Shown piece by piece: positions 9,935-12,442 of a stretch of DNA of 64,000 nucleotides. The notes under the pieces are model-generated. The model was not told the origin of the DNA, did not search any database, and saw only the letters and a list, made by a program, of their open reading frames with translations. Made by a program: the position numbers and the translations under genes. The stretch covers positions 2,914,001 through 2,978,000 of the forward strand of contig NZ_CP011005.1 in assembly GCF_000950575.1 (NCBI RefSeq). Reading direction: 5' to 3'. Numbering within the stretch: the stretch's first letter is position 1; the number at the start of each line of letters is the position of its first letter. This stretch comes from Psychromicrobium lacuslunae. GTDB taxonomy: Bacteria > Actinomycetota > Actinomycetes > Actinomycetales > Micrococcaceae.

Positions 9935-10022
9935 ACGCGTAGTGGCGACGCTGCGGTGCGGGGAGCGGCGACTTTGACGTCATCTTCGGCCTGGTGGGAC
10001 GCGCTGCGCGTAGCATGTGGCC

Positions 10023-11300
10023 ATGAGCCAAACCGCGACAGTTCAACCAGTCACCAGGCATCTGCGGCAAATTGTCGCTTCCGGCGTCGGCAACGCTGTG
10101 GAATGGTACGACTGGTATGTTTACAGCTTCCTGGCGACGGTCTTCGCGCCACAGATTTTCCATGCCGGAAATTCCACCGCGGACGTCTTGTCCGCTTTCG
10201 CGGTCTTTGCGGCAAGCTTCCTATTGCGGCCCATCGGGGGTTTGCTAGTCGGCAATCTGGCCGATCGAATTGGCCGCAAAAACACCCTGGTGCTGACGAT
10301 AAGCACGATGGGTCTGGGCTCGCTAATAGTCGGGCTGACCCCAACTTTCGAAGCCGTCGGTGTCTGGGCGCCAATTATTCTAGTGTTCGGGCGACTGATT
10401 TCTGGTCTTTCGGTGGGCGGCGAGTTTGCGGCTAATACGGTCTTCCTGGTGGAATCCGCGCCGCCGAATCGTCGTGGTTTTTACTCCTCCTTCCAGTACG
10501 TTTCGACTACCTTGGGGCAGCTACTTGCCTCCGGCCTGGCGGCGCTGCTGGTGAATATCTTGAGTCCGGCGGATATGAGCGCCTGGGGTTGGCGGATTCC
10601 CTTTATTGTCGGAGCGCTGCTGAGCTTGGTCGGTCTGTGGATACGTCGTGGGACTGAGGAAACCCTCGTGGTGAAGGCCATTACGGAGCGACCCAAGCTC
10701 TTTGACGCGCTGGTGAAGTATCCGAAACCTTCGCTGCTGATCATTGGTGTCACCATTGCTGGCACGATTCTCTACTACACCTGGACCACCTACCTGGCCA
10801 CCTATGTCCCGGCCAACGGCGGGGTAAACTCTGGGCAGTTCTTGATTATTTCCACCATTGCACTTTTCTTCTTCATGGTGATTCAGCCGGTGATCGGTAT
10901 CCTGTCGGACCGCTGGGGTCGCAAGCCGTTCCTGATTGCTTGCGCCGGAATTTTCGCGCTCGGCATTGTGCCTGCGCTGAGTCTGTTCTCGCACTCAGAG
11001 TTCGCCGGAACCTTGGTGATTACCCTGCTCGGCATGCTGGTACTTAGCGGATTCACCGCGATTTCAGCAGCGGTCAATGCCGAAATCATTCCCACTCACG
11101 TCCGCAGCGCGGGAATTGGGTTCCCGTATTCGCTCACCGTGGCGCTGTTCGGTGGTACCGCACCCTTCGTGGGCACTTTACTGAAGAGCTGGGGCGTGCC
11201 GGGCTACTTTGGTTGGTATGTGGCCGCGCTCTGTGTGGTGTCGTTGTTGGTCTACATTTTCGCACTCAAGGAAACCGCCCACAAACCGCTGCCGGAGTGA
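10023..11300 (+). CDS. MFS transporter, metabolite:H+ symporter (MHS) type
   Basis: About 425 residues with 12 predicted membrane segments. It has the MHS opening GVGNAVEWYDWYVYSFLA, the loop LADRIGRKNTLVLT between helices 2 and 3, and SDRWGRKPFL in the central loop. Such carriers import organic acids, betaines or similar solutes with protons. ATG at 10023 is preferred over the GTG six bases earlier. It is monocistronic and flanked on both sides by hairpin elements. Substrate unknown. Confidence 0.9.
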   Translation: MSQTATVQPVTRHLRQIVASGVGNAVEWYDWYVYSFLATVFAPQIFHAGNSTADVLSAFAVFAASFLLRPIGGLLVGNLADRIGRKNTLVLTISTMGLGSLIVGLTPTFEAVGVWAPIILVFGRLISGLSVGGEFAANTVFLVESAPPNRRGFYSSFQYVSTTLGQLLASGLAALLVNILSPADMSAWGWRIPFIVGALLSLVGLWIRRGTEETLVVKAITERPKLFDALVKYPKPSLLIIGVTIAGTILYYTWTTYLATYVPANGGVNSGQFLIISTIALFFFMVIQPVIGILSDRWGRKPFLIACAGIFALGIVPALSLFSHSEFAGTLVITLLGMLVLSGFTAISAAVNAEIIPTHVRSAGIGFPYSLTVALFGGTAPFVGTLLKSWGVPGYFGWYVAALCVVSLLVYIFALKETAHKPLPE

Positions 11301-11336: not shown

Positions 11337-11395
11337 TCGAGTGTGCAGTTCTACACCTTTTGGGGCCACTTTAAGGTGCAGAACTGCACACTCGA
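11337..11395. repeat. Hairpin element, copy 2
   Basis: Arms 11337-11359 and 11373-11395 pair over 23 bases with a single mismatch, around a 13-base loop. The outer bases TCGAGT and the AGTTCT core match the plan of copies 1 and 3. It follows the MHS transporter stop by 36 bases and precedes the erm leader, so it may also end transcription, though no T-run follows. Confidence 0.8.
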
Positions 11396-11438
11396 TGAAG
11401 CAGGGACATGGCGGAACCGATACGCTTGAGAGGTGATA

Positions 11439-11504
11439 GTGAATTTCTGTGCGGCGAGCTTTGCCGCTTCAGCGCTGCCGAGTCGGCGGCTACGCCGCTC
11501 TTAG
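11439..11504 (+). CDS. Putative erm leader peptide (21 residues)
   Basis: A GTG start at 11439 has GAGAGG at 11428-11433 and gives NFCAASFAASALPSRRLRRS after the initiator. The RLR near its end matches the Arg-x-Arg type of macrolide-dependent ribosome arrest motif known from ErmDL-like leaders. The last codons and stop lie inside two mutually exclusive hairpins. It precedes the erm gene by 104 bases. The ribosome site, motif and fold can be seen; translation and drug response are inferred. Confidence 0.5.
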   Translation: MNFCAASFAASALPSRRLRRS

Positions 11505-11602
11505 CGGCGCCTCGATTCCAGCACCTCTGACGTCAAGTCGCCGCTTCCGCGCCCAAGCCGGCGCGCCTTTGCGCTGCCCGGCTCCGCTTTTGAGCACGGA
11601 GC
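11484..11602 (+). promoter_or_regulatory. Putative translational attenuator of erm
   Basis: Segment 11485-11490 can pair with 11494-11499, while CGCCGCT at 11493-11499 can instead pair with AGCGGCG at 11503-11509 in a seven-base-pair stem with a CTT loop. Further down, GCTCCG at 11581-11586 pairs with CGGAGC at 11597-11602 and so covers the erm ribosome site. Competing hairpins over a leader ORF plus a masked ribosome site is the classical layout of inducible erm genes. How the upstream switch would reach the last hairpin is not obvious. Confidence 0.45.
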
Positions 11603-11608
11603 ATACAG

Positions 11609-12376
11609 ATGTCTCGATTCACTTCCGGCCGGCATGAGAACGGCCAAAATTTTCTCAAAGATCACCAAATTATCAACCGTTTAACCCAAGAAATAAACAA
11701 CACCCAAGGCGCCATTCTCGAAATAGGCGGTGGAGCGGGGGCGATATCTCGGCAGCTCGCCAAACTTGGTCGAGAACTAACCATCGTTGAATACGATCCG
11801 CGGTTTGCCGACCGCTTGCAGCGCGCTTTGGCTGGCTCGGCGCAAATCGTGCTGGCGGACTATCTGGACTATCGAATGCCAAGCTCCATCGACGTCGTAG
11901 TGGGCAATCTGCCGTTCCACCTCACCACAGCGATCCTGCGGAAGCTGTTGAATGAACCGGATTGGCAATATGCAGTGCTGCTTACTCAGTGGGAGGTCGC
12001 CCGACGTCGAACGGCGGTGGGCGGGGCTTCGCTATTGACCGCTCAGGTGTGGCCCTGGTTTGAGTTCACGTTATTGGCCAAGGTTCCGGCGCAGGCGTTC
12101 ATGCCGCGGCCCAGTGTCGACGGCGGGCTGTTCAGCATCGAGCGTCGGCAGCAACCACTAGTCCCCATTGACTCCGTCTCGAAGTGTTCGTATCGCAACT
12201 TTGTTCAGCGGGTCTTTACCGGGCCCGGCCGAGGGATCTCACAGATCCTCTGGAAAACTCAAGGCCGCAAACCGCCGACTTCCTTATTAGGGGAGCTGCG
12301 GCTTCCGCCAGCAGCACTGCCGAGGGAACTCAACGCGGAGCAGTGGGCAGCGCTTTGGCGAGCCACCCGCCGCTGA
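11609..12376 (+). CDS. erm: 23S rRNA (adenine-N6) methyltransferase, Erm family
   Basis: 255 residues. The opening GRHENGQNFL and motif I EIGGGAGAIS (residues ~38-47) bind S-adenosylmethionine; GNLPFHLTTAIL (residues ~99-110) is the catalytic motif IV in its Erm form, unlike the NLPYN form of KsgA. Erm enzymes dimethylate A2058 of 23S rRNA and confer macrolide-lincosamide-streptogramin B resistance. A ribosome site GGAG sits seven bases before ATG but within a hairpin. The C-terminal lobe is complete. No mobile-element genes are nearby, so it may be a chromosomal intrinsic erm. Confidence 0.9.
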   Translation: MSRFTSGRHENGQNFLKDHQIINRLTQEINNTQGAILEIGGGAGAISRQLAKLGRELTIVEYDPRFADRLQRALAGSAQIVLADYLDYRMPSSIDVVVGNLPFHLTTAILRKLLNEPDWQYAVLLTQWEVARRRTAVGGASLLTAQVWPWFEFTLLAKVPAQAFMPRPSVDGGLFSIERRQQPLVPIDSVSKCSYRNFVQRVFTGPGRGISQILWKTQGRKPPTSLLGELRLPPAALPRELNAEQWAALWRATRR

Positions 12377-12383
12377 CAGCAAA

Positions 12384-12442
12384 TCGAGTTCGGAGATCTG
12401 CACGTATTGAGTTCGTCATAAGGTGCAGATCTCCGAACTCGA
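12384..12442. repeat. Hairpin element, copy 3
   Basis: Arms 12384-12403 and 12423-12442 are perfect 20-base inverted repeats (TCGAGTTCGGAGATCTGCAC) with a 19-base loop. It begins eight bases after the erm stop. It shares the CGAGT-N4-AGATCT plan with copies 1 and 2, and the variable four bases are compensated in the opposite arm. Confidence 0.8.

Follow-up and report, generated by a model that had tools for sequence, protein, structure and literature searches.

A putative leaderless Arg-x-Arg leader peptide upstream of an erm gene in Psychromicrobium lacuslunae, and a leader layout shared by related erm loci

The stretch of the Psychromicrobium lacuslunae genome analysed here, 64,000 nucleotides in full (the window), carries an erm gene located between the gene of an MFS transporter (10017-11300, upstream) and rpsF (from 12649, downstream). 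The gene and the short leader that precedes it are bracketed by two related palindromes:

11337-11395, no strand assigned: palindrome between the MFS gene and the leader, ending 25 nt before the predicted -10 box of the leader promoter
11609-12376, forward strand: erm, 23S rRNA (adenine-2058-N6)-methyltransferase, 255 aa (NF000499, PF00398, PDB match)
12384-12442, no strand assigned: related palindrome directly after erm, before rpsF

The protein encoded at 11609-12376 scores 247.9 bits against the broad Erm model of NCBIfam (NF000499, cut-off 212), matches Pfam family PF00398, and has Erm(38) (7f8a) as its top match in the PDB, while it stays under the cut-off of the RsmA/KsgA model (145.9 versus 171). 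A second PF00398 gene found elsewhere in the genome (L001) presumably encodes RsmA. Among the models of named Erm classes, the protein falls under the cut-off in every class listed, including Erm(46) (277.4 for a cut-off of 503), Erm(38) (275.4 for 800) and Erm(55) (256.7 for 525). Its top identities reach at most 53% in 395 genomes of the family, 53% in 396 of the order and 55% in 394 of the class, and all 1434 plasmid records that it matched are less than 60% identical, plasmid-borne relatives being found in Micrococcus, Kocuria and Rhodococcus, among others. By convention, proteins sharing at least 80% identity belong to the same named Erm class, and on this scale the protein would represent a new class. 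In the Erm tree, from which L006 and L028 were excluded as too short, it appears as the sister of L036 on a long branch; with a support of 89/85, for a program's mark of 95/80, we consider this placement weak.

Directly upstream of erm and on the same strand, we found a short open reading frame with an Arg-x-Arg motif, the arrangement that defines the Arg-x-Arg class of erm leaders:

11421-11426, forward strand: predicted -10 box TACGCT of the leader promoter, a hexamer common to relatives, 6 nt from the GTG
11433-11504, forward strand: leader ORF, 23 codons from GTG 11433, MIVNFCAASFAASALPSRRLRRS, probably leaderless
11487-11495, forward strand: codons Arg19-Leu20-Arg21, predicted arrest motif, with Arg21 three codons before the stop

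The motif is followed by Arg22, Ser23 and a TAG stop codon. The frame contains two GTGs, at 11433 (23 codons) and at 11439 (21 codons), so that the 21-codon frame ending in SRRLRRS reported by the first-pass annotation, from GTG 11439 to TAG 11504, is real. The same annotation gave the leader a ribosome site of its own: a six-base match to the Shine-Dalgarno consensus does exist just upstream of GTG 11439 (GAGGTG, 11430-11435), but the leader probably has no ribosome site, and a start at 11433 fits the relatives better. Since the starts of the relatives sit 6-8 nt past a -10-like box, we propose that the leader is probably leaderless, with 23 codons; translation from GTG 11433 means that GAGGTG would not serve as a ribosome site, and the purine-rich stretch before GTG 11439 would then fall largely between box and start. 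The TACGCT hexamer itself is found identical in L010, L012, L016, L034, L038, L043 and L063. Transcription usually starts about 7 nt after a -10 box, and leaders whose start lies 6-8 nt past the box would therefore have their start codon at the 5' end of their mRNA or directly beside it. In the window the transcript is predicted to start at about 11432-11434, which comes close to the situation that the first-pass annotation had held against an attenuator, namely a transcription start downstream of 11439.

The window's leader is beyond chance. In 5000 dinucleotide shuffles of the 330 nt upstream of erm, a frame combining a TAnnnT box 5-9 nt before its start with a basic-x-basic motif near its end arose in 1.5% of cases; without the box requirement, RLR was obtained in 4.0% and any basic-x-basic in 37%. 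With the gap restricted to 6-8 nt and the motif to -5/-3 relative to the stop, erm alone among 49 ORFs of at least 200 aa is preceded by such a leader, ORFs starting less than 330 nt from either end of the window being skipped, and two such frames in total are present on both strands of the 64 kb.

We then compared the upstream regions of erm loci, at first 64 oriented loci including that of the window (sampled from the best 30 of 42 places in the family and the best 30 of 55 in the order), later 82 with the addition of class-level loci (29 places listed, 22 new loci). The other PF00398 gene (L001) and a second copy of the window's erm (L002) were excluded from the comparison, and L081, L083, L092, L095 and L096, in which no Erm start was recognised, are outside the 82. 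Leaders were searched as frames starting 5-9 nt after a TAnnnT box and holding a basic-x-basic motif within their last nine residues. Such leaders are present in 41 of the 64 loci, versus a mean of 0.58 and a maximum of 3 in 200 rounds of dinucleotide shuffling, and the reverse strand of the same upstream stretches yielded none. When the gap was left free between 0 and 20 nt, the 64 loci showed a peak at 7 nt (30 loci), the second highest value being 14 loci at 10 nt. In the extended set, such a leader precedes erm in 59 of the 82 loci, that of the window among them, with a box-to-start gap of 7 nt in 45, 8 nt in 8 and 6 nt in 6, and with ATG (50) or GTG (9) as start codon. Of 52 unique peptides, 46 have their second basic residue at position -3 relative to the stop and the first one two residues earlier; in 4 of the 52, corresponding to the erm(X) type, the pair is shifted one codon further from the stop (-4). 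As any place within the last nine residues was allowed, the -3 position was not imposed by the search. The distance from leader to erm, 104 nt in the window, is 96-105 nt in 16 relatives. A comparison of the leader across relatives, suggested at first pass as a check in the form of an alignment, brings out a layout conserved in related erm loci, and the lack of conservation that would have spoken against the leader is not what we see; the rest of the peptide sequence is not conserved. A pattern search of genome contigs for related loci matched 34 stretches, none of them a relative, and the window has no match in Rfam at gathering thresholds.

The 23 other loci, which lack such a leader, form a mixed set. 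One clade, from the organism's own family (L004, L005, L007, L009, L011, L018, L023, L026), has leaders such as MGSISIAVVARPWA or MGIQHAIQTIAVARPRTGRAAMRS, with a similar -10 spacing, IAVV-like or VARP stretches (e.g., in MGSISIAVVARPWA) and a longer distance to erm; we take these stretches to recall the ErmC-type motif. In one branch of erm(X)-like loci (L030, L050, L051, L053) the motif is absent, and the leader MLISGSVFMRPLTSR has an MRPLTSR ending instead of RLR(S/T)NR, the last three loci being seen as a shorter ISGSVFMRPLTSR frame. The erm(46) locus L065 shows EFRRF, and no leader of this kind was found in L014 although its Erm is very close to relatives that have one. The remaining loci of the 23 are degenerate or unrecognised.

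The position of the motif relative to the stop codon has a possible physical meaning. The mRNA enters the ribosome about 12 nt downstream of the first P-site base. When Leu20 occupies the P site, a distance of 12 nt separates the first P-site base from the start of the stop codon, which then lies about at the mRNA entry. The fixed geometry of motif and stop would thus place the front of an RLR-stalled ribosome on the stop codon.

Another way to read the same leader is that ribosomes use the GAGGTG site to start at GTG 11439 (21 codons), that the promoter lies further upstream, and that the system works as ErmC or ErmD do. This reading would profit from the Shine-Dalgarno match and from the 11421 box, upstream of which no recognisable -35 was found, the sigma-70 scan having called no promoter on the forward strand. 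It has to face the TAnnnT box that all 59 leaders have 6-8 nt before their start within the 5-9 nt allowed, as well as the peak at 7 nt in the free gap scan, and it would require a promoter located in, or before, the palindrome at 11337-11395. We therefore regard it as unlikely, and retain the leaderless 23-codon frame for what follows.

Between the end of the leader and erm, the RNA can adopt several overlapping hairpins:

11493-11509, forward strand: stop-codon hairpin, 7 bp with a 3-nt loop; arms 11493-11499 (segment 1) and 11503-11509 (segment 2)
11503-11545, forward strand: alternative pairing of segment 2 (11503-11509) with segment 3 (11539-11545), 7 bp, which excludes the stop hairpin
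11548-11565, forward strand: hairpin of 11548-11553 with 11560-11565, 6 bp
11556-11583, forward strand: candidate anti-sequestering hairpin AGCCGG..CCGGCT, -17.3 kcal/mol alone
11581-11602, forward strand: GCTCCG (11581-11586) paired to CGGAGC (11597-11602), a hairpin over the erm ribosome site, -9.9 kcal/mol

The overlapping hairpins have energies of -9.2 to -17.9 kcal/mol each. The hairpin at 11556-11583 shares bases with the arm predicted to cover the erm ribosome site, and its TGCCCGGCTCCG block is common to L010, L012 and others; in the predicted optimum of the 11581-11602 hairpin, five of the six pairs form, together with three further pairs on the inside. The first-pass annotation had pointed to competing hairpins at the motif and to a 6-bp hairpin over the erm ribosome site. 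The former are present as sequence (11493-11509, the other at about 11484-11497) and the latter can form, yet the pairings of the window are no better than those of shuffles: z is -1.4 for the stop hairpin (p 0.105), 0.0 for segment 2 with downstream RNA, and 0.2 for the erm ribosome site with upstream RNA, and the whole leader RNA is just slightly more stable than its shuffles (z -1.63, with 13 of 200 shuffles at least as stable). In the free RNA, folding predicts for the six bases of the erm ribosome site an unpaired probability of 0.00-0.45.

Across the family, a stem of at least 5 bp spans the stop codon in all 22 non-redundant leaders, versus a mean of 7.3 and a maximum of 16 with shuffled 3' flanks, and a stem of at least 6 bp in 16 of them (shuffled mean 3.2, maximum 8); this test covered 39 leaders, with L013 missing (later start taken). 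The z-scores were obtained from 58 leaders, L013 included, of which 39 are non-redundant. Their mean is -1.66 for the stop hairpin and -1.67 for segment 2 with downstream RNA, and weaker (-0.89) for the ribosome site with upstream RNA; a p of 0.05 or less was found in 16, 16 and 6 of the 39, respectively. In L063 the leader lacks a stop codon at the usual position and continues beyond it, and this locus was excluded from the hairpin tests. These pairing strengths fit with a stalling event that buries the 5' arm of the stop hairpin and frees its 3' arm. The core of this hairpin (GCCGC/CGGCG) is invariant in the 11 non-redundant leaders that form the largest group of one register, and because it never varies, covariation lends the hairpin no support. 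In the window and in several relatives, the arm nearest erm is predicted to be able to cover the erm ribosome site.

When a ribosome was masked at the motif, equilibrium folding did not free the window's erm ribosome site (0.19 free versus 0.17 stalled). Among 40 leaders folded with a P+13 edge (L013 missing), the site opens by more than 0.1 in 5 and closes by more than 0.1 in 9, these rows including at least four in which the ribosome site is badly set (L037, L042, L046, L052) and one with a badly set stall (L063). If the RNA is cut off at the start codon of erm, the stalled structure of the window does use the hairpin at 11556-11583, but its ribosome site pairs elsewhere. Masked-ribosome folding thus leaves the site covered; the overlapping hairpins make an RNA switch a plausible model, for which folding during transcription could matter. 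The absence of ribosome-site release in these predictions would also suit a leader acting on transcription or mRNA stability, in which the stalled ribosome prevents termination or decay within the leader, a kind of control reported for other resistance or regulator genes. Yet a consensus scan of the forward strand revealed no terminator-like site (intrinsic terminator) in 11433-11608, and the arm nearest erm can reach the ribosome site; this type of control seems improbable to us here, and we keep to an RNA switch acting on the erm ribosome site.

Leader peptides of erm genes were reportedly grouped by RLR and other motifs by Ramu in 2009. In ErmDL, the leader of ermD from Bacillus licheniformis and the structural reference for RLR arrest, the ribosome is described to stall when Leu occupies the P site and Arg is to be added, and the motif is critical with telithromycin and less so with erythromycin (PMC8298421). 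The window's leader resembles it in having Arg-Leu-Arg in a short ORF before erm, but the motif occupies residues 6-8 of 14 in ErmDL as given in that report and 19-21 of 23 in the window, where it is tied to the stop codon and not near the start, in a frame that is probably leaderless. Two systems found on plasmids have a similar layout. The erm(X) leader (L066 on a Glutamicibacter plasmid, annotated as erm(X), with close relatives L027, L028 and L047) has the same succession of box, RLR and stop stem before erm: a TATAAT box 6-7 nt before the start, an RLR(S/T)NR end, a 6-bp stop stem and 97-99 nt to erm. Its RLR lies one codon further from the stop, and its Erm is 48.8% identical to that of the window over the aligned part. 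The reverse strand of L028 has one Erm start motif at 603 and another at 689, 86 nt away, and the ribosome site and first codons of the erm(X)-like gene appear to occur twice. The erm(36) leader, MGSPSIAVTRFRRF, from the Micrococcus luteus plasmid pMEC2 (L062), shares the layout as well, with R-F-R at -5/-3, a 12-bp stop stem and 98 nt to erm, and differs in the N-terminus of the leader and in its Erm (53.2% identical over the aligned part). The leader of L036 (MSAFGASCAFYARLRRS), from genome G646 of the same order, ends in YARLRRS where that of the window ends in SRRLRRS, with a 9-bp stop stem and 96 nt to erm; L036 differs from the window in having an A/T element in its promoter and a WhiB7-like gene in G646.

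The Arg-x-Arg class among actinobacterial erm genes, to which the first-pass annotation had assigned the locus, is thus not new, as it is present at loci that carry the annotation erm(X) or erm(36), and the window adds a case to it. For erm(X), an upstream leader peptide gene and a suspected attenuation have already been described (PMC3350403), and inverted repeats in the 153-bp region upstream of erm(56) are said to possibly serve attenuation (PMC10470526). Other reports mention pikR1 and pikR2 as inducible (PMC6685928) or present erm(37) as an exception, being a member of the WhiB7 regulon (PMC4128351), and a survey of erm genes from 2024 states that upstream ORFs show no universal conservation pattern (PMC11264731). 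Among the papers listed, judged mostly by their titles and the openings of their abstracts, we found no earlier description of the family-wide geometry, although there may be one. The window may therefore represent a new case of a known mechanism, and the family-wide geometry may be new.

WhiB7-controlled erm genes are characterised by a genome that encodes a WhiB protein with an AT-hook and by an A/T element located before the -35. In 24 of the 52 unique leaders (L077, L075, L078, L080 and L088 among them), versus 1-5 in five control stretches, a run of four A/T bases has its end 24-29 nt upstream of the -10 box, and several of these runs resemble what we take to be the WhiB7 promoter element (AAAATCGGTTG in L077). 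With a WhiB7-like query from G646 we searched the 55 genomes behind the 59 leaders, the four plasmid loci being omitted: 24 genomes have a match at 9.8e-23 or better, the top one in the other 31 being 2.5e-11. The A/T element occurs in 23 of the 24 genomes with a WhiB7-like protein versus 6 of the 31 others by hand count (Fisher p 7e-9, uncorrected for genome kinship), and the six exceptions belong to one closely related erm clade, which is also found in two WhiB7-bearing genomes. This suggests that erm might be under two layers of control, WhiB7 and leader peptide, where element and protein co-occur. In the window, no A/T element was found upstream of the -10 box, and the two WhiB genes found in the genome both lack an AT-hook, the top match to the WhiB7-like query being 2.7e-8. 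Both marks of WhiB7-controlled erm genes are thus lacking at this locus, so that if this erm is inducible, the leader must be responsible for it.

The history of the locus bears on whether the leader is still functional. Within the genus, erm is found in 1 of 7 genomes. Judged by eye, three of the six sisters (L071, L072, L073) lack erm at this place and show a palindrome or hairpin between the end of the MFS gene and rpsF; the other three have different neighbours in the 420 nt upstream. A pattern made from one palindrome arm occurs three times in the genome, the third copy lying elsewhere (L097). The erm gene was probably gained at, or lost from, the site between the MFS gene and rpsF. One could thus imagine that the gene was acquired with part of its promoter lost at the palindrome junction, leaving a decayed or constitutive attenuator that no longer senses the drug; its sporadic presence in the genus, the erm-free sister loci, the missing -35 and A/T element, hairpins no better than shuffles and the long branch in the Erm tree would all be in line with this. 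Nevertheless, the ORF, the position of the motif, the stop stem, the 104-nt distance and the ribosome site have all been kept at about 50% protein identity, which makes such decay quite unlikely in our eyes. That frame and RLR are mere accidents of GC-rich sequence is very improbable: shuffles do give the motif (RLR in 4.0%, any basic-x-basic in 37%), but the combination of box spacing and motif position occurs before 1 of 49 ORFs, an erm, and in two frames of the window, and the same layout recurs in 58 other erm loci.

We thus consider it likely that the stretch functions as an Erm-type attenuator with a leader peptide, acting through the leaderless 23-codon frame and the stop hairpin as follows. 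Transcription would start at or near GTG 11433, and ribosomes would begin directly there without a ribosome-binding site. In the absence of drug, they would translate all 23 codons and come off, and the RNA is predicted to fold with the erm ribosome site (11597-11602) paired. A ribosome with a bound macrolide or ketolide would halt with Leu20 in the P site, Arg21 not being accepted after Arg19, a step modelled on the ErmDL work (PMC8298421). Halted there, it would occlude 11493-11499, the 5' arm of the stop hairpin, so that the 3' arm (11503-11509) would become available for pairing with 11539-11545, a change that might pass through the hairpins at 11548-11565 and 11556-11583 and free the erm ribosome site. 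Erm, once made, would methylate A2058. The inducible erm with an Arg-x-Arg leader envisaged at first pass is therefore supported by the comparison of loci in what concerns the leader layout, while start of the transcript, arrest, RNA switch and induction are put forward as parts of a model. Under this model, erm would probably be switched on only when a macrolide is present.

Taken together, the observations on the window and on its relatives could be accommodated by a common design, which we judge to have an even chance of being correct. Actinobacterial erm genes would share a leaderless, stop-anchored Arg-x-Arg sensor that opens the stop hairpin, a design different from the textbook cases of Gram-positives; WhiB7 would add a second layer where present, and the putative new Erm class of the window would rely on the leader alone. 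If this is true, one could tell from sequence which erm genes of actinobacteria are kept off as long as there is no macrolide or ketolide, and methods that look for ribosome sites would tend to miss such leaders. Compared with the 2024 survey (PMC11264731), a shared pattern emerges once the spacing of the start and the distance to the stop are taken into account. The proposed design would also open to experiment whether ribosomes that have bound the drug initiate on leaderless messages and stall within them.
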